Shown piece after piece: positions 24,526-31,098 of a stretch of DNA of 39,916 nt; the stretch's first letter is position 1; every line of letters starts with the position of its first letter. The stretch spans positions 1 to 39,916 of the forward strand of contig NZ_OBEN01000012.1 of NCBI RefSeq assembly GCF_900215655.1, written 5' to 3'. Position numbers and translations under genes: made by a program. Source of the DNA: Hydrogenobacter hydrogenophilus. Lineage in GTDB: Bacteria > Aquificota > Aquificia > Aquificales > Aquificaceae. The notes beneath the pieces were generated by a model. That model was not told where the DNA came from. It did not search any database and was given only the letters and a program-made list of their open reading frames with translations.

Positions 24526-25395
24526 ATGGGTTATATGATAAGGACGGTTATACTTTTGGGTGTTCTAACAGGCCTTTTCCTTTTTGTGGGACATCTGATA
24601 GGTGGCAAAACAGGTATGACAATAGCTCTTATACTTGCAGGTATTATGAACTTTATAGCCTATTGGTTTTCTGACAAGATAGTTCTGTCCATGTACGGCG
24701 CTAGGGAAATAAGCTACGAAGAAGCACCATGGCTTCACAGAATAGTGGAAGAGCTATCACAGAAGGCTAATATTCCTAAACCGCGCATCTATCTTGTTCC
24801 CATGGAGCAACCTAATGCTTTTGCCACAGGAAGAGGTCCAGGACACTCTGCGGTTGCGGTAACATCAGGTATACTGCACCTTTTGGATGAGGACGAGCTA
24901 AGAGGTGTCTTAGCGCACGAGATTGGTCATATAAAAAACAGGGATGTCTTGGTTGCTACCATGGCAGCAACTATAGCGGGTGCCATATCCTATCTAATAA
25001 ACATGTTCCAGTGGATGCTACTTTTTGGAGGAGGCAGGGATGAGGAAGACAGGGGAGGATGGGCAGGATTGGTAGGTAGCCTTTTACTTATCATCCTGAC
25101 ACCTATTATAGCCATGATCATACAGATGGCTATATCAAGGTCAAGGGAGTATTTGGCAGACGAAACGGGTGCCAAGATAAGCGGTGATCCTCTTGCTCTT
25201 GCGAGAGCTCTTGAGAAAATACACAACTATGTTTATCAAATTCCTGCAGAAGTCAATCAAGGCACAGCTCATCTTTTCATAGAAAATCCCTTGTCTGGTG
25301 AAGGTATATGGGAGCTCTTCTCCACACACCCATCAACGGAAAAGAGAATAGAAAGGCTCAAAGAGCTCGCCAGAAAGATGGGAGTTTATGCGTGA
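24526..25395 (+). CDS. htpX: HtpX-type M48 membrane metalloprotease
   Basis: Zinc protease of the inner membrane involved in quality control of membrane proteins under heat or envelope stress. The zinc motif HEIGH is in VLAHEIGHIKNRD, with a third ligand Glu in SREYLADE. Paired TMs lie at the N-terminus (about 5-45), and two more hydrophobic stretches at about 150-170 and 185-205. AFATGRGPGHSAVAVTSGIL is the family signature. The length (289 aa) is normal. GTGGAGG precedes the start, and an 11-bp direct repeat sits in the 73-bp promoter region. Its last 10 nt overlap the convergent TSUP gene. Confidence 0.95.
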   Translation: MGYMIRTVILLGVLTGLFLFVGHLIGGKTGMTIALILAGIMNFIAYWFSDKIVLSMYGAREISYEEAPWLHRIVEELSQKANIPKPRIYLVPMEQPNAFATGRGPGHSAVAVTSGILHLLDEDELRGVLAHEIGHIKNRDVLVATMAATIAGAISYLINMFQWMLLFGGGRDEEDRGGWAGLVGSLLLIILTPIIAMIIQMAISRSREYLADETGAKISGDPLALARALEKIHNYVYQIPAEVNQGTAHLFIENPLSGEGIWELFSTHPSTEKRIERLKELARKMGVYA

Positions 25396-26138
25396 TAAGA
25401 GTTTAGGAAGAAGAAAAGGGAAAGCAAAAACCCCCACAGTACTACAAACAGTTTGACTTTTTTTCTATCAAATCTTAGGGATAACCTTGCACCCGCATAA
25501 CCACCCAACGCGAAACCTAACATCATCAAAAAAGCATAAGACCACAACACATGCCCGCTAAAGAGGAAGTATACAGAAGCTATGCCGTTTATAGTCATAC
25601 CTAATATATTCTTTATACCGTTGGCTATGTGTATGTCTGCTATTCCCACCATTCCTAAAGATGCGAGCATAATTATCCCTATACCTGCACCAAAGTATCC
25701 ACCATACAGGGCTGTAAGAAACTGGGCGATAAACACCAAAGGATAGGATCTGCCTTTTAGGTGAACCTTTGTCCATGTGATAAGCTTTTCGTTGAGCATC
25801 AATAAGATGGTTGCAAAAAGTATGAGAAAGGGTATGAGTATTCTAAAAGTGTTTGAGGATGTTTTTACAAGAAGGTATGCGCCAGCAAAGCCTCCCAATA
25901 TGGATGGTATGAGTAGCGCTTTTAAATGTTCTTTACCTTTCTTTACATGATCCCTAAAACCTAAAGCGGAAAAAAGACTTCCCGTCCAAAGGGATACTGT
26001 ATTGGTTATGTTGGCTGAGATGGGATCTGTTCCAAGCCATACAAGCACAGGGAAAGTAATAAGAGTCCCACCTCCTGCCACAGCATTGGTAGCACCAGCA
26101 AGAAAAGATGCCACAAGCACCACTAAAAACTCTGTCAT
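25386..26138 (-). CDS. TSUP (TauE/SafE) family membrane permease
   Basis: An inner-membrane anion transporter of the TauE/SafE class, whose characterised members move sulfite, sulfoacetate or related sulfur compounds. The 250-residue protein shows about seven or eight hydrophobic segments and the two half-repeats of the family: FLAGATNAVAGGGTLITFPVL in the first half and TALYGGYFGAGIGIIMLASL in the second. It is the last gene of the five-gene redox operon and overlaps the nitroreductase by ATGA. In that context it may export an acidic product or a sulfur compound (inference). Confidence 0.88.
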   Translation of the reverse strand: MTEFLVVLVASFLAGATNAVAGGGTLITFPVLVWLGTDPISANITNTVSLWTGSLFSALGFRDHVKKGKEHLKALLIPSILGGFAGAYLLVKTSSNTFRILIPFLILFATILLMLNEKLITWTKVHLKGRSYPLVFIAQFLTALYGGYFGAGIGIIMLASLGMVGIADIHIANGIKNILGMTINGIASVYFLFSGHVLWSYAFLMMLGFALGGYAGARLSLRFDRKKVKLFVVLWGFLLSLFFFLNSYHA

Positions 26139-26755
26139 ACTATCCTGCCAAACTCCTCAAACTTAAATCTGTAAGCTCTTGGAAGAAGTTTTTTTGTTGG
26201 GTCCTTGTAGCCTATAGCGAGGATCATGGGAACTATTTTTTCCTTGTCTATGTTTAGAAATTCCTTTAGAAGAGTCTCATCGAATCCTTCCATGGGGTGA
26301 GTTTCAAGTCCGTAAGCCCTTGCCACTATCATAATAGTCATACCAAAAAGTGCAGTATCCCTTATGGCTTTCCTCTTTGCTTTTTCCTTATCTTTCCAAC
26401 CTTCTAATATCCTCTCTCTGAGGGTATCCCTGTTTTCTGCAGGTATGTAGCCTAAGTCTATCCAGCTATCTAACACCCTATCCACATGTTCAAAGCCCGC
26501 TTTAGTATTGGCGATAAGCACTATGTTAGCGGACGCATCTTCTACCTTCTGCTGTCCGTAGCATATCTCTTTGAGCTGTTTTTTCTTTTCTTTATCTTTA
26601 ACAACTATGACTTCCCAAGGTTGTAGGTTGTATCCAGAAGGAGCAGTTGCGGATATCTCAAGTATTTCTTTTATTGTTTCGTCAGGTATATCTCTTGTAG
26701 GGTCAAAGAAAGTTATAGACCTTCTTTCCGTTATAAGTTTTAGGCATTCCTTCAT
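26135..26755 (-). CDS. Nitroreductase-family FMN oxidoreductase
   Basis: FMN- and NAD(P)H-dependent enzyme reducing nitro compounds, quinones or flavins. The N-terminus has the FMN phosphate-binding RRSITFFDP and the conserved SGYNLQPWEVIVV. The C-terminal part has GLETHPMEGFDE and a glycine in the IGYKDP motif, also typical. The length is 206 aa. AAGGAGG lies 9 nt before the ATG, and it is 22 bp downstream of the molybdopterin subunit gene. It belongs to the operon led by the ene reductase. Exact substrate unknown. Confidence 0.88.
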   Translation of the reverse strand: MKECLKLITERRSITFFDPTRDIPDETIKEILEISATAPSGYNLQPWEVIVVKDKEKKKQLKEICYGQQKVEDASANIVLIANTKAGFEHVDRVLDSWIDLGYIPAENRDTLRERILEGWKDKEKAKRKAIRDTALFGMTIMIVARAYGLETHPMEGFDETLLKEFLNIDKEKIVPMILAIGYKDPTKKLLPRAYRFKFEEFGRIV

Positions 26756-26777
26756 ATCAAAAAACCTCCTTGAGAAT

Positions 26778-28895
26778 TTACAGAAGTGATTTTATAACTT
26801 CTGGCGCCATTGGTAGGTTGTTTATTTGTATGCCATAACCCCAGAGCAGAGCGTTTGCAACAGCAGGAGCCACGGGTGGAAGTGCGGGTTCTCCTACGCC
26901 ACCCATAGGTCCATCACTTTTTACAATGTGAACCTCTACCTGAGGTGCTTCCGCCATGGTAAGTATGGGATAGGTGTCAAAGTTAAGACTGCTGGGTCCA
27001 TTCTTAGAAAAGCTCACTTTTTCCTTTAAGGTAGCGCTAAGACCCATTATAACAGCACTTTCTACCTGAGAAACAAGAAGGTCTGGATGTACTACTAAGG
27101 GTCCTATATCTATGGCACATACTACGCGATGAACCTTTATCTCTCCTGTGTTTTTATTTAGGGATACTTCCACCACCTGCGCCACATGACTGCCAAAAGA
27201 GTAGTGGTAAGCAAGACCCATAGCCTCTCCGTACATTGGTCTTTTGCCCCAACCTGCTTTTTCTGCCACCACCTCTATGACCTTCTTAGCTCTCTCATGG
27301 TTTTTTAAAAGCTCTAACCTTAACTCCACTGGGTCCCTTTTTCCTAAATGCGCAAGCCTGTCTATGAATGTTTCTAAAGTGAAAGCGTTGTGAGTGCTAC
27401 CAACAGATCTCCAGAACCAAACAGGAATAGGAAGGTCCACCTTTACGAACTCCACATGCACATGAGGAATTTCATAAAACATGTTCTCTATACCTTCTAC
27501 CGCTGCCCTGTCCACCCTTGAGGGTCTTCCTGCCCATTCAAAAACCGCTGGGACCGCTATTTTGTGATAAAGAGCGACTACTCTTCCTTTTTCGTCCAAC
27601 GCTCCTTCTAAATGCGTTGCGTTCATAGGTCTGTACCAACCAGACTTTACATCATCTTCCCTTGTGTAGATGAGCTTTACCGGTTTTTTGAGTTTTTTAG
27701 ATATCTCAAGGGCTTCTTTTACAAACTCTACATTGGACTTTCTGCCAAAACCTCCACCTAAGTAAGTGGTGTAGACCTCAATCTTATCCTCTGGCAACCC
27801 TGTGATGCTCTTAGCAGTCTGTAATGTCCATGTTTGAGCCTGAACAGGAGCGTATACTGTGCATCTGTCTTCCTTTACATCCACAACGCACGCCATAGGC
27901 TCCATGGTCGCATGGTAAAGGTACGGAAGCAAGTACACTGCAGAGATTTTTCTTTTAGTGTTCTCAAGTAATAAAGTAGGGTTTCCATCTTTTCTTGCCA
28001 CTACTCCTTTCTTCTTTAGCATATCAAGGTAATACTGACTTAACCTTTCGTCGTCAAAGCCTTCTAACGGACTTTTTGTCCATTCTACTTTTAGCTTTTC
28101 TCTCCCTTTTAGTGCACCTTCTACTGTTTTGGCACACACCGCAACACCACTTGATATGGTAAAAACATCCAGAAGGTCTTTTATCTGACGAGCTTGTGAG
28201 TCATCCACGCTTTTTACCTTTGCACCAAAGTATGGAGGTCTTTCAACAACCGCATAAACCATGTCTTTTAATCTAACATCTATACCGAATATAGCTTTAC
28301 CTTCAACTTTTTCTTGGGTGTCTATACGCGGGACACCTTTGCCTATGTATATAAACTCGGAAGGTTCTTTTAACCTCACTTGTGTAGGTATGGGAAGTTT
28401 TAATGCCTTCTCCCAAAGCTCACCATAACTTACTTTTTTGTTTGCATAGCTTACATAACCCATCCGTGCTTGCAGTTTTTCTTTTGGTACTTTCCACTCG
28501 CGCGATGCACTCTCTAAGATCATCTCCTTCACAGATGCACCAAGGAGTCTTAAGAATTCGTACATATTTCTTACGCTGGTGCTTCCGCCTGTGAGCTGTG
28601 ATCCCATCTTTTTGTCTATGTAAACATCCCTTGCGGGTGCTGATTTTACTATAACCCTATCCCAAGGAAAGTCCAGCTCATCAGCTACTATCATGGACAA
28701 ACCCGTATAAACGCCTTGTCCCATCTCTGACTTGTTCACCAAAAGCATAAGATAATTATCTTTCGTTATGCTTGCCCACAAGTGAGGTTTAATTTGTGGG
28801 TTTTCGGAAGCTTTCACAAGCTTAAATCCTTCAGGCAAAAGGACAAGACCCAAACCTAAACCGCCGAGCTTTATAAGGTCCCTTCTGGTAATCAT
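26778..28895 (-). CDS. Molybdopterin-binding hydroxylase large subunit with Tat signal (isoquinoline 1-oxidoreductase beta-like)
   Basis: Large, molybdenum cofactor-binding subunit of a xanthine oxidase-family hydroxylase. The N-terminus MITRRDLIKLGGLGLGL is a twin-arginine signal, implying export of the folded, cofactor-loaded complex. Family motifs include GGSTSVRNMYEFLR, LLPYLYHATMEPMACVV, YLGGGFGRKS, PVWFWRSVGSTHNAFT and GGVGEPALPPVAPAVANAL, where the Glu matches the catalytic base. I start at the ATG at 28895 (705 aa), which overlaps the small-subunit stop as ATGA after a GGAGG; the frame is open 22 codons further upstream but only across the small-subunit gene. No FAD subunit is encoded nearby, as in IorAB-type enzymes that pass electrons to a periplasmic or membrane acceptor. 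Substrate unknown. Confidence 0.9.
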   Translation of the reverse strand: MITRRDLIKLGGLGLGLVLLPEGFKLVKASENPQIKPHLWASITKDNYLMLLVNKSEMGQGVYTGLSMIVADELDFPWDRVIVKSAPARDVYIDKKMGSQLTGGSTSVRNMYEFLRLLGASVKEMILESASREWKVPKEKLQARMGYVSYANKKVSYGELWEKALKLPIPTQVRLKEPSEFIYIGKGVPRIDTQEKVEGKAIFGIDVRLKDMVYAVVERPPYFGAKVKSVDDSQARQIKDLLDVFTISSGVAVCAKTVEGALKGREKLKVEWTKSPLEGFDDERLSQYYLDMLKKKGVVARKDGNPTLLLENTKRKISAVYLLPYLYHATMEPMACVVDVKEDRCTVYAPVQAQTWTLQTAKSITGLPEDKIEVYTTYLGGGFGRKSNVEFVKEALEISKKLKKPVKLIYTREDDVKSGWYRPMNATHLEGALDEKGRVVALYHKIAVPAVFEWAGRPSRVDRAAVEGIENMFYEIPHVHVEFVKVDLPIPVWFWRSVGSTHNAFTLETFIDRLAHLGKRDPVELRLELLKNHERAKKVIEVVAEKAGWGKRPMYGEAMGLAYHYSFGSHVAQVVEVSLNKNTGEIKVHRVVCAIDIGPLVVHPDLLVSQVESAVIMGLSATLKEKVSFSKNGPSSLNFDTYPILTMAEAPQVEVHIVKSDGPMGGVGEPALPPVAPAVANALLWGYGIQINNLPMAPEVIKSLL

Positions 28896-29350
28896 GCTTT
28901 TACCTCCATGAGCTTTTGTGCCCTTTGAATGGCTTTTAGTATCCTTCCGTAAGTTCCACACCTACAGAGGTGAGAGGACATAACGGAGATGATCTCTTCT
29001 TTGCTTGCTCTTGGGTTTTTATTAAGGAGCGCATAAGCTTCAACTATCTGTCCCGGCTGGCAATAACCACACTGTGGTACATCAAGTTCTATCCATGCAC
29101 GCTTTACTGGGTGATAAGATGGAATGCCTTCTATGGTGATAATCCTCTTTCCTTTTACTGAACCAACAGGAGTTATGCAAGAGCGTGTAGGATTCTCTTC
29201 CACGAGGACGGTACAAGCACCGCATATACCCTTTCCGCATCCAAACTTGGTGCCAGTAAGGCCTATGTGTTCCCTTATTACCCAAAGGAGAGGTGTATCC
29301 TCCTCTACATCTACCTTGTAGTGCCTTCCGTTTAGATAAAGCTCAACCAT
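28892..29350 (-). CDS. 2Fe-2S small subunit of the molybdopterin hydroxylase (isoquinoline 1-oxidoreductase alpha-like)
   Basis: Electron-transfer subunit with two [2Fe-2S] clusters. The plant-ferredoxin-like cluster is bound by GCGKGICGACTV plus a later Cys (RSCITP), and the second cluster by CGYCQPG and HLCRCGTY. The length (152 aa) is normal. It has no signal peptide and presumably rides out with the Tat signal of the large subunit. AAGGAGGTG precedes the ATG, 11 bp after the ene reductase gene. Its stop overlaps the large-subunit start (ATGA). Confidence 0.93.
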   Translation of the reverse strand: MVELYLNGRHYKVDVEEDTPLLWVIREHIGLTGTKFGCGKGICGACTVLVEENPTRSCITPVGSVKGKRIITIEGIPSYHPVKRAWIELDVPQCGYCQPGQIVEAYALLNKNPRASKEEIISVMSSHLCRCGTYGRILKAIQRAQKLMEVKA

Positions 29351-29361
29351 ACTTCACCTCC

Positions 29362-30417
29362 TTAAAGCCATGCTCTTATATACTGTCTTGGTACTTCAGG
29401 CTTTAGTCCTTTACTTTTTGCCCACCTCATAGGTAGATAAGGGTCTCTCAAAAACTCTCGTGCAATGGCAACAAGGTCTGCCCTTGAGTTTCCTATTATT
29501 TCTTCTGCTTGTTCGTAGGTGGTTATGAGTCCTACGCTCATGGTTTTTATGCCTACCTCCTTTTTTATTCTTTCTGCATAAGGTACTTGAAAACCTGCAT
29601 AAGCATTAACTTTTTCTTCTTCAACTATACCACCCGAAGAGCAGTCTATAACATCACAACCCTCTTCTTTTAGTGCTCTTGCCAGATGGATGCTATCTTC
29701 TAATGTCCAACCACCTTCTACGTAGTCAACGCAGGAGAGTCTCACAAAAAGTGGCATACTGTCGGGAATGGCTTTTCTTACTGATCGTACCACTTCTATT
29801 AAAAACCTCTCCCGGTTTTCCAAACTATCACCGTAGTTATCAGTTCTTTTGTTAGAGATGGGAGATAGAAACTCGTGAAGGAGGTATCCGTGCGCAGAAT
29901 GGATCTCTATTACATCAAAGCCCGCATCAACCGCTCTCTTTGCTGCATTAACAAAAGCTTTCTGAACTTCTTGTATGTCTTCTTGCTTCATTTCCTTAGG
30001 AACAAGCCAGTCTTTTCCGTAAGGGATTGGACTGGGTGCTATTGCATGCTTTGAGCCTTTTAATTTTTTCTTCTCTCTTTCCCAAGGTGCGTAGTCTTCT
30101 GCTTTTCTTCCAGCGTGAGCCAGCTGTATGCCCACCTTAGCACCAAAAGAGTGGCAAAAATCCACAATCCTCTTTAGGCCTTCGATGTGTTCGTCCTTCC
30201 ATATACCAAGGTCCAACGGAGAGATCCTTCCTCTTGGTTCTACAGCGGTAGCTTCGGTGAATATAAGGCCTGCACCACCCACCGCCCTTGAACCCAAATG
30301 AACCAGATGCCAATCGTTAGCAAAACCATCTTCTGAAGAGTACATACACATAGGAGAGACCACCAACCTGTTTTTTAAGGTGATTCCACGAATTTTAAGG
30401 CTTGAAAATACAGTCAT
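29362..30417 (-). CDS. Old yellow enzyme family ene reductase, YqjM type
   Basis: NAD(P)H-dependent flavin enzyme that reduces activated C=C bonds (enones, maleimides, quinone-like electrophiles). It has the YqjM-class features: SPMCMYSS with the regulatory Cys and Tyr near the N-terminus, FND-type DWHLVHLGSRAVGGAGLI, QLAHAGRK, EIHSAHGYLLHEFLSPISNKRTDNYG with the substrate-binding His pair, and VAIAREFLRDPYLPMRWA. I take the ATG at 30417 (351 aa); a TTG at 30438 lies upstream of the -10 box. It is the first gene of a five-gene operon and is divergent from the HxlR regulator. Confidence 0.92.
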   Translation of the reverse strand: MTVFSSLKIRGITLKNRLVVSPMCMYSSEDGFANDWHLVHLGSRAVGGAGLIFTEATAVEPRGRISPLDLGIWKDEHIEGLKRIVDFCHSFGAKVGIQLAHAGRKAEDYAPWEREKKKLKGSKHAIAPSPIPYGKDWLVPKEMKQEDIQEVQKAFVNAAKRAVDAGFDVIEIHSAHGYLLHEFLSPISNKRTDNYGDSLENRERFLIEVVRSVRKAIPDSMPLFVRLSCVDYVEGGWTLEDSIHLARALKEEGCDVIDCSSGGIVEEEKVNAYAGFQVPYAERIKKEVGIKTMSVGLITTYEQAEEIIGNSRADLVAIAREFLRDPYLPMRWAKSKGLKPEVPRQYIRAWL

Positions 30418-30424
30418 AACCAAT

Positions 30425-30452
30425 ATTCTACCAAACAAGGATTTTCTGTCAA
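30425..30452 (-). promoter_or_regulatory. Promoter of the ene reductase operon
   Basis: On the minus strand a perfect TTGACA (30452-30447) is separated by 16 bp from TAGAAT (30430-30425), which ends 7 nt before the ATG at 30417. It is the only promoter in the window with a clear consensus -35. No Shine-Dalgarno lies before the ATG, so the mRNA should be leaderless. Confidence 0.65.
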
Positions 30453-30480
30453 GTACTTACAGTTTTGTGATATACTTACA
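30451..30480. promoter_or_regulatory. Candidate HxlR operator between the ene reductase operon and hxlR
   Basis: TACTTACA occurs at 30454-30461 and again at 30473-30480 (19 bp apart), and AAGTACTT at 30451-30458 is a perfect palindrome. The left copy touches the -35 of the ene reductase promoter and the right copy overlaps a TATACT box (30471-30476) usable by hxlR. TACT/TTAC-type half-sites are typical of DUF24/HxlR regulators such as YodB and CatR. Binding is inferred, not shown. Confidence 0.45.
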
Positions 30481-30504
30481 AAAAAGAAACTAAAGGAGGT
30501 GCTA

Positions 30505-30852
30505 ATGAAAGAATGTCCCATAGAGCTAACATTAAATGTCATAGGTGGCAAGTGGAAGTTTCTTATCATAAAAGAGCTTATGGCTGGACCCAAAAGGTTC
30601 TCACAGCTTCAAAAATCTATAAAAGGCATAACTCAAAGAATGCTAACTAAACAACTCAGAGAGCTAGAGCGTGATGGTATAGTAAACAGAATACTTTACC
30701 CTCAAGTTCCACCAAAAGTAGAGTATACCTTAACACCTGTGGGCAAAGAGCTTAAAAGCGTGCTATCAGCTTTACACAGTTGGGGACTTCTGTATATGCA
30801 AGAAAATGGGCAGGGGGTAAGCTCGGGTTGTGAAACCGAGTGGCTCAAATAA
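30505..30852 (+). CDS. HxlR/DUF24-family transcriptional regulator
   Basis: A winged-helix regulator of the HxlR class, whose studied members (HxlR, YodB, CatR, HypR) sense aldehydes, quinones or disulfide stress. CPIELTLNVIGGKWKFLIIKEL carries the conserved N-terminal Cys (residue 4) used for redox sensing in relatives. GPKRFSQLQKSIKGITQRMLTKQLRELERDGIVNR is the recognition helix and wing, followed by VEYTLTPVGKEL. I start at the ATG at 30505 (115 aa) after AAGGAGG at 30493-30499. It is divergent from the five-gene redox operon and probably controls it and itself. Its stop abuts the convergent small secreted protein gene with no gap. Confidence 0.92.
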   Translation: MKECPIELTLNVIGGKWKFLIIKELMAGPKRFSQLQKSIKGITQRMLTKQLRELERDGIVNRILYPQVPPKVEYTLTPVGKELKSVLSALHSWGLLYMQENGQGVSSGCETEWLK

Positions 30853-31098
30853 TTAATCGTCCCAATCTTTCCAGTGCTTCCAGTGTTTGTGCTTGTGAAT
30901 GATGATTACCCTTTCCACCGGAACATAGTAAACGGGAGGAGGATAATATGGGCGGTAGACTACAGGCCTTTCTACATAAACTATCCTTTCTGGGCAGTAA
31001 TGAGGGGCACCTAAATTTACACCTAAGGAGAAGAAAACTCTGTCGTGCGCCAAAGATACACCTGAAACCAAAAGAAAAGCTACAATTAGCTTTCTCAT
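30853..31098 (-). CDS. Small secreted Tyr/Pro- and His/Lys/Trp-rich protein
   Basis: An 81-residue protein I cannot assign to a family. A clean signal peptide (MRKLIVAFLLVSGVSLA) is followed by about 63 mature residues: a single Cys, a Pro/Tyr-rich centre (RPYYPPPVYYVP) and a tail IIIHKHKHWKHWKDWDD with alternating His and Trp. The tail could bind a metal or associate with the cell envelope. AGGAGGT lies 7 nt before the ATG, which supports it as a real gene. It ends directly against the hxlR stop and is divergent from the biotin carboxylase gene. Confidence 0.65.
   Translation of the reverse strand: MRKLIVAFLLVSGVSLAHDRVFFSLGVNLGAPHYCPERIVYVERPVVYRPYYPPPVYYVPVERVIIIHKHKHWKHWKDWDD

Follow-up and report, generated by a model that had tools for sequence, protein, structure and literature searches.

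In Hydrogenobacter hydrogenophilus, four genes for redox proteins and one for a permease lie in a row, transcribed away from a gene for an HxlR-type regulator. What kind of compound would such a set of genes deal with, and does the set answer to the regulator as one unit? We examined these questions in a window, the whole 39,916-nt stretch of DNA analysed (contig NZ_OBEN01000012.1, positions 1 to 39,916 of the forward strand). The source genome belongs to the Aquificaceae, measures 1.6 Mb and is 99.99% complete.

Gene organization of the locus

25386-26138, minus strand: TSUP (TauE/SafE) permease (Pfam TauE domain, 133.7 bits)
26135-26755, minus strand: nitroreductase-family flavoenzyme, NTR (Pfam Nitroreductase, 108.5 bits)
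26778-28895, minus strand: molybdenum-binding subunit, MoL, with twin-arginine signal MITRRDLIKLGG (MoCoBD_1/2)
28892-29350, minus strand: [2Fe-2S] subunit of the molybdenum enzyme, FeS (Fer2 and Fer2_2)
29362-30417, minus strand: ene reductase, OYE, a NamA/YqjM-type Old Yellow Enzyme (NCBIfam NamA equivalog model, 441.7 bits, cut-off 431)
30505-30852, plus strand: HxlR/DUF24-family regulator, Cys4 in MKECPIE (Pfam HxlR, 121.2 bits, cut-off 20.8)

The initial annotation described five close-packed minus-strand genes divergent from HxlR, and the coordinates, strands and spacing all matched this description. ATGA overlaps join TSUP to NTR and MoL to FeS, gaps of 22 bp and 11 bp separate NTR from MoL and FeS from OYE, and 87 bp lie between OYE and the divergent hxlR. 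The start of MoL is the ATG at 28895; the ORF list gives a longer frame with a GTG start, which merely extends the gene upstream. Profile matches in Pfam and NCBIfam also agreed with the families that had been assigned to all six genes. Compared with the nearest relative, all six are under purifying selection (dN/dS 0.04-0.13). The nearest named relative for the locus is Hydrogenobacter sp. RSWP5, whose molybdenum subunit is 90% identical.

The best solved relatives of the regulator were B. subtilis HxlR, YtcD and YybR/HypR. It scored 120.2 bits against the C. jejuni RrpB equivalog model (NCBIfam NF047364), which has a cut-off of 175 bits. The conserved N-terminal cysteine noted earlier held up: a Cys-Pro pair was invariant in 21 of 21 HxlR proteins compared and includes Cys4 of the window protein. 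In DUF24 regulators the N-terminal cysteine senses quinones, HOCl and diamide, and nitroreductases and azoreductases are under their control (PMC6943732). RrpA and RrpB likewise use a cysteine switch, controlling MdaB and NfrA (PMC8765430).

OYE matched the Thermus chromate reductase 3hf3 (E = 5e-119). NTR, whose best solved relative was B. subtilis YdfN (3bem), reached no NCBIfam equivalog cut-off for a named nitroreductase subfamily (best 76.8 of 152 bits) and can be assigned to the superfamily only. YdfN is also known as MhqN, of the B. subtilis quinone resistance genes mhqNOP. Both the OYE and the nitroreductase folds take many substrates.

Beyond hxlR, at 30853-31098 on the minus strand, lies a gene for a small secreted-looking protein rich in His, Tyr and Pro, without a Pfam family. 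Its homologues in Thermocrinis-like genomes immediately precede FeS-MoL, and those in other genomes lie close to the cluster, so this protein may belong to the system.

A conserved site in the divergent intergenic region

30425-30452, minus strand: operon promoter TTGACA-16-TAGAAT with extended -10 (11/12 matches, a consensus match only)
30448-30479, plus strand: conserved putative operator GTCAAGWACNNNCNNNNNNNNNWTATACTWWC, 32 bp, between the divergent genes (61-genome pattern search)
30471-30476, plus strand: TATACT, putative extended -10 of hxlR (TGATATACT), kept in all operator sites
30476-30489, no strand: imperfect dyad TTAC-N6-GAAA, centre 30482.5, overlapping the hxlR -10 (dyad scan)

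The operon promoter was the best match between 25200 and 31200, and the only strong promoter that we found in the operon, placed before OYE. The upstream regions of the HxlR genes have GTCAAGWAC...TATACT in common, and TCAA is always separated from TATACT by the same distance, 22 nt. The GTCAAGWAC element is the complement of the operon -35, and the 32-bp site thus covers the operon -35 as well as the -10 of the regulator. Because promoters facing apart require no fixed distance, the constant spacing makes a protein-binding site likely.

We searched 61 genomes for the operator pattern, allowing at most two mismatches, and obtained 24 matches; the reversed pattern gave none. Fifteen had no or one mismatch, of which 14 precede HxlR and one, in G005, precedes CDGSH and a small membrane protein. 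This G005 site is 142 kb from the HxlR gene of that genome and stands before genes of the same set. Among the matches with two mismatches, two more precede HxlR. The seven others (G017:C13:57505, G010:C168:1787, G015:C20:2808, G022:C237:19995, G048:C1:149882, G059:C14:11703 and G007:C1:397662) may be chance matches or further members of the regulon. Since the pattern was written from a subset of the matched regions, most matches are in-sample; the five out-of-sample ones are in G024, G007, G014 and G021 and at the distant G005 site. The source genome has a single site, at 30448-30479. With this conserved shared promoter and putative operator, the HxlR control proposed for the operon gained support from sequence.

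In the dyad scan of 13 sites, TTAC-N6-GWAA at 30482.5 was the best dyad of the region (P = 0.011, column permutation), and a second pair of half-sites, centred at 30463.5, did not stand out. Together with the conserved site, the dyad points indirectly to binding of the shared promoter by HxlR. The operator of B. subtilis CatR is TTAC-N5-GTAA.

In L062, L063, L064, L030, L031, L034 and L147, hxlR starts only about 6-8 nt past TATACT, which suggests a leaderless mRNA; the window hxlR, unlike these, has an AGGAGG site. In G007 (L189, L010), HxlR is in fragments and MoL carries an in-frame stop, with the operator retained. This is possibly joint decay, or it possibly reflects assembly errors.

Conservation and re-assortment in relatives

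The initial annotation would have been refuted by a cluster unique to one strain and scrambled in relatives, and this was only half the case: the exact order was kept in the nearest relatives, but the gene content was re-assorted in other genera. In RSWP5, the order HxlR, OYE, FeS, MoL, NTR, TSUP and both flanks are identical to those in the window. Two genomes of the same genus (G003, G004) have an aldo/keto reductase (AKR) and a 4HBT thioesterase inserted between MoL and NTR, and G056, of another family, retains HxlR-OYE-FeS-MoL-AKR. The cluster lacks OYE in G014, G021, G033 and the Aquificaceae MAGs L030 and L034; HxlR there comes after MoL but is oriented the other way, and next comes a block ending in NQO-NTR-TSUP. 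These five clusters also contain varying combinations of WrbA, DJ-1, 4HBT, CDGSH and methyltransferase genes. Many Aquificaceae have FeS-MoL with no HxlR beside it, and Thermocrinis-like genomes have FeS-MoL-NTR without HxlR. The gene set is thus conserved in close relatives and re-assorted further out, where other genera retain the regulator but change its partners. As the arrangement is found again in relatives, it is not due to chance.

HxlR loci without MoL have similar neighbours: WrbA-DJ-1-NQO in G005; OYE-WrbA and CDGSH-methyltransferase in G035; alcohol dehydrogenase-OYE and LigB-like-NQO-methyltransferase in G009; CDGSH with a LigB-like fragment in G018; and NQO-methyltransferase at the second HxlR copy of G004. 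Across the relatives, the partners of HxlR include OYE, WrbA, MdaB-like quinone reductase, DJ-1, AKR, CDGSH, LigB-like proteins and nitroreductase, with domains verified in Pfam. Together these proteins make up equipment for coping with quinones, enones and reactive aldehydes, and the electrophile, quinone and aldehyde theme first suggested for the window finds backing in the neighbours of HxlR. Operator-type HxlR and OYE genes adjoin in 7/7 genomes having both. HxlR lacks the operator in G013, G020, G026 and G032, and HxlR and OYE are far apart or on separate contigs there.

The route first proposed, a single line from reduction inside the cell through oxidation outside to export, was not supported by this comparison: the enzymes were swapped, lost and relocated independently, and FeS-MoL and NTR-TSUP were found without HxlR in several genomes.

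We rejected two further ideas. The MoL-linked HxlR proteins do not form a single clade, the label requiring three changes on the tree. A sulfur-trafficking role for the small genes of the relatives was abandoned in view of their Pfam domains (CDGSH, 4HBT, DJ-1, flavodoxin-fold and methyltransferase).

Two loci are worth recording on their own. In G001 (L021, L053; G001:C33, ~16.0-17.5 kb), a natural deletion that starts within the small upstream protein has removed HxlR, OYE, FeS and all but 34 residues of MoL, which remain as a scar ahead of an intact NTR-TSUP. L031 (RFFP01000017.1), a contig labelled Acidobacteria, has an Aquificaceae-like cluster with the operator and a flanking gene common to Aquificaceae loci; this may result from mis-binning or transfer.

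The molybdenum enzyme, its predicted export and its maturation

MoL and FeS have the hallmarks of the XO family: molybdenum-binding domains, two [2Fe-2S] domains, and the GGGFGR and GxGEP motifs. Enzymes of this family hydroxylate heterocycles as well as aldehydes. Almost the whole of MoL aligned with 8gy3_C (E = 2.3e-69), which is the large subunit of the Gluconobacter membrane-bound aldehyde dehydrogenase, and FeS matched the small subunit of that enzyme (8gy3_B, E = 1.7e-46). The predicted MoL model (pLDDT 83.8, pTM 0.85) fitted 8gy3_C best (TM 0.85), followed by E. coli PaoC (TM 0.65). By sequence and by the fold of this model, the Gluconobacter enzyme is the nearest solved relative. No FAD subunit is encoded in the operon, and neither the ORFs of the operon nor the neighbouring ones include a cytochrome c subunit.

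Export of the molybdenum enzyme had been proposed earlier, and the proposal is strengthened by twin arginines (R4, R5) invariant in 21 MoL homologues and by TatC in the source genome (238.7 bits). FeS has no signal sequence of its own and would therefore be exported together with MoL, as in PaoABC, where signal-less subunits are co-exported by Tat (PMC4273604).

The maturation of this enzyme raises a puzzle. Molybdenum enzymes of the XO family usually require a chaperone of the XdhC family (PMC2997495). The source genome has no XdhC, nor do 17 of the 20 MoL-bearing genomes. It is present only in G003, G004 and G055, adjoining a separate CO-dehydrogenase-like enzyme, and the best MocA-type matches adjoin these same XdhC genes. 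Our search for MocA in the source genome found only MobA and more distant nucleotidyltransferases, and no candidate stood out in most MoL-bearing genomes. MocA is less securely absent than XdhC, because none of the relatives and just one of 14 control genomes passed the strict cut-off. With XdhC missing and no MocA standing out in most MoL genomes, the maturation of the molybdenum enzyme is unexplained, and the activity of MoL cannot be assumed given the lack of XdhC in the genome. Either MoL has a different maturation route or it is inactive, and the purifying selection on the gene speaks against inactivity.

The MobA (molybdenum cofactor guanylyltransferase) at L191:3296-4093 (G000:C8, ~10.3-11.1 kb) has a C-terminal CopZ/HMA-type metal-binding domain, an unusual fusion that links molybdenum cofactor and metal handling.

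A proposed thiol-controlled electrophile response and its alternatives

We consider that the locus is probably an inducible operon for defence against reactive electrophiles, under thiol-based control by HxlR, which has also acquired an exported aldehyde dehydrogenase as one of its enzymes. The gene set, its conservation, the shared conserved site, the Tat motif and the fold supply the sequence basis of this reading. HxlR, presumably as a dimer, would occupy the divergent promoter region that both sides share (30448-30489), covering the operon -35 and its own -10. It would most likely repress both promoters and be released by thiol modification, as related DUF24 repressors are (PMC6943732). 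We infer repression rather than activation here, as we do the inducer and, in the steps below, the substrates, the electron acceptor and the TSUP cargo. Activation is possible, as HypR (PMC6943732) and RrpA (PMC8765430) act positively. Quinones, enals and other thiol-reactive aldehydes or oxidants would modify the N-terminal cysteine, so that HxlR is released and the genes on either side are expressed. Within the cytoplasm, OYE would remove activated C=C bonds, and the NTR flavoenzyme would reduce quinones or enones by two electrons. FeS-MoL would fold there, leave jointly via Tat and, in the periplasm, oxidise aldehydes to acids with transfer of electrons to the respiratory chain. TSUP might transport an anion, either a product or a sulfur compound.

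The genes might instead form a pathway for one aromatic or N-heterocyclic compound, with MoL hydroxylating the ring like isoquinoline 1-oxidoreductase, OYE and NTR processing the product and HxlR sensing the substrate. The XO superfamily includes quinoline and 4-hydroxybenzoyl-CoA enzymes, and LigB-like proteins occur near HxlR in some relatives. However, the neighbours of HxlR are swapped between genera, unlike those of a fixed pathway, the aldehyde dehydrogenase is the nearest fold by the wide margin given above, and the window has no ring-catabolic genes; we regard this pathway as unlikely. Allicin and polysulfanes also act on DUF24 regulators (PMC6943732), and TSUP and NTR, besides sharing an ATGA overlap, stay paired in two genera, in one case (G027) at a place apart from MoL. 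Both points would suit a sulfur-stress operon, in which polysulfide or sulfite from sulfur oxidation modifies the HxlR thiol, TSUP exports sulfite or a related anion, and the flavoenzymes are general reductants. Yet most operator-bearing units have no TSUP beside HxlR, none of the clusters examined has a sulfur-oxidation gene, and OYE and the aldehyde dehydrogenase would be left unexplained. This is the least probable of the alternatives.

HxlR might also control OYE only, next to a separate, constitutive respiratory unit for aldehyde oxidation made up of FeS-MoL-NTR-TSUP. Each half does occur alone: FeS-MoL-NTR(-TSUP) lacks HxlR and OYE in Thermocrinis-like genomes and L033, and HxlR units lack MoL in G009, G018 and G035. 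In G014, G021 and G033, however, HxlR and the operator are clustered with FeS-MoL and NTR in a quite different order, which implies that this association has been kept or re-made. The 11-bp and ATGA junctions, and the sole strong promoter found lying ahead of OYE, also speak against two modules, and we find the division quite improbable.

Under the electrophile-defence reading, a mostly chemolithoautotrophic lineage of thermophiles, the hot-spring Aquificaceae, would have a defined electrophile regulon that has a candidate operator of its own and counts an exported molybdenum aldehyde dehydrogenase among its enzymes. Such regulons would be re-assembled from exchangeable enzymes around a single switch. 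More tentatively, and with some doubt, we suggest a two-compartment response, in which a thiol-sensing HxlR would control both reductases in the cytoplasm and an FAD-free molybdenum aldehyde dehydrogenase that is exported by Tat and matures without XdhC or MocA. The apparent lack of both factors would make XO-family maturation outside the textbook route open to direct test. What is most useful in the finding is the operator that the units have in common and the lack of the maturation factors.

Comparison with known systems

We found no described system with the same gene set in the open-access literature. The closest are the DUF24/HxlR redox regulons (B. subtilis YodB, CatR, HypR and HxlR; C. 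jejuni RrpA-mdaB and RrpB-nfrA), which share the HxlR-type winged helix and the N-terminal cysteine. Their targets are likewise quinone reductases, nitroreductase-family proteins and flavin reductases, and they are autoregulatory and often divergent (PMC6943732, PMC8765430). The RrpA/RrpB repeats (TATCAT, TTATAA) differ from the operator described here, and the present operon adds the molybdenum aldehyde-dehydrogenase-like enzyme and the TSUP permease.

Although both subunits of the Gluconobacter enzyme 8gy3 align with MoL and FeS over nearly their full length and give the best fold match, the identity is only 26%, and the operon here has no gene for a cytochrome subunit. E. coli PaoABC is, like FeS-MoL, an exported molybdenum enzyme of the XO family thought to act on aldehydes. 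Its signal is on the FeS subunit PaoA, whereas here it is on the molybdenum subunit; moreover, there is neither an FAD subunit nor a PaoD/XdhC chaperone here. The B. subtilis mhqNOP genes are regulated by the MarR-type MhqR, whereas the regulator here is of the HxlR type.
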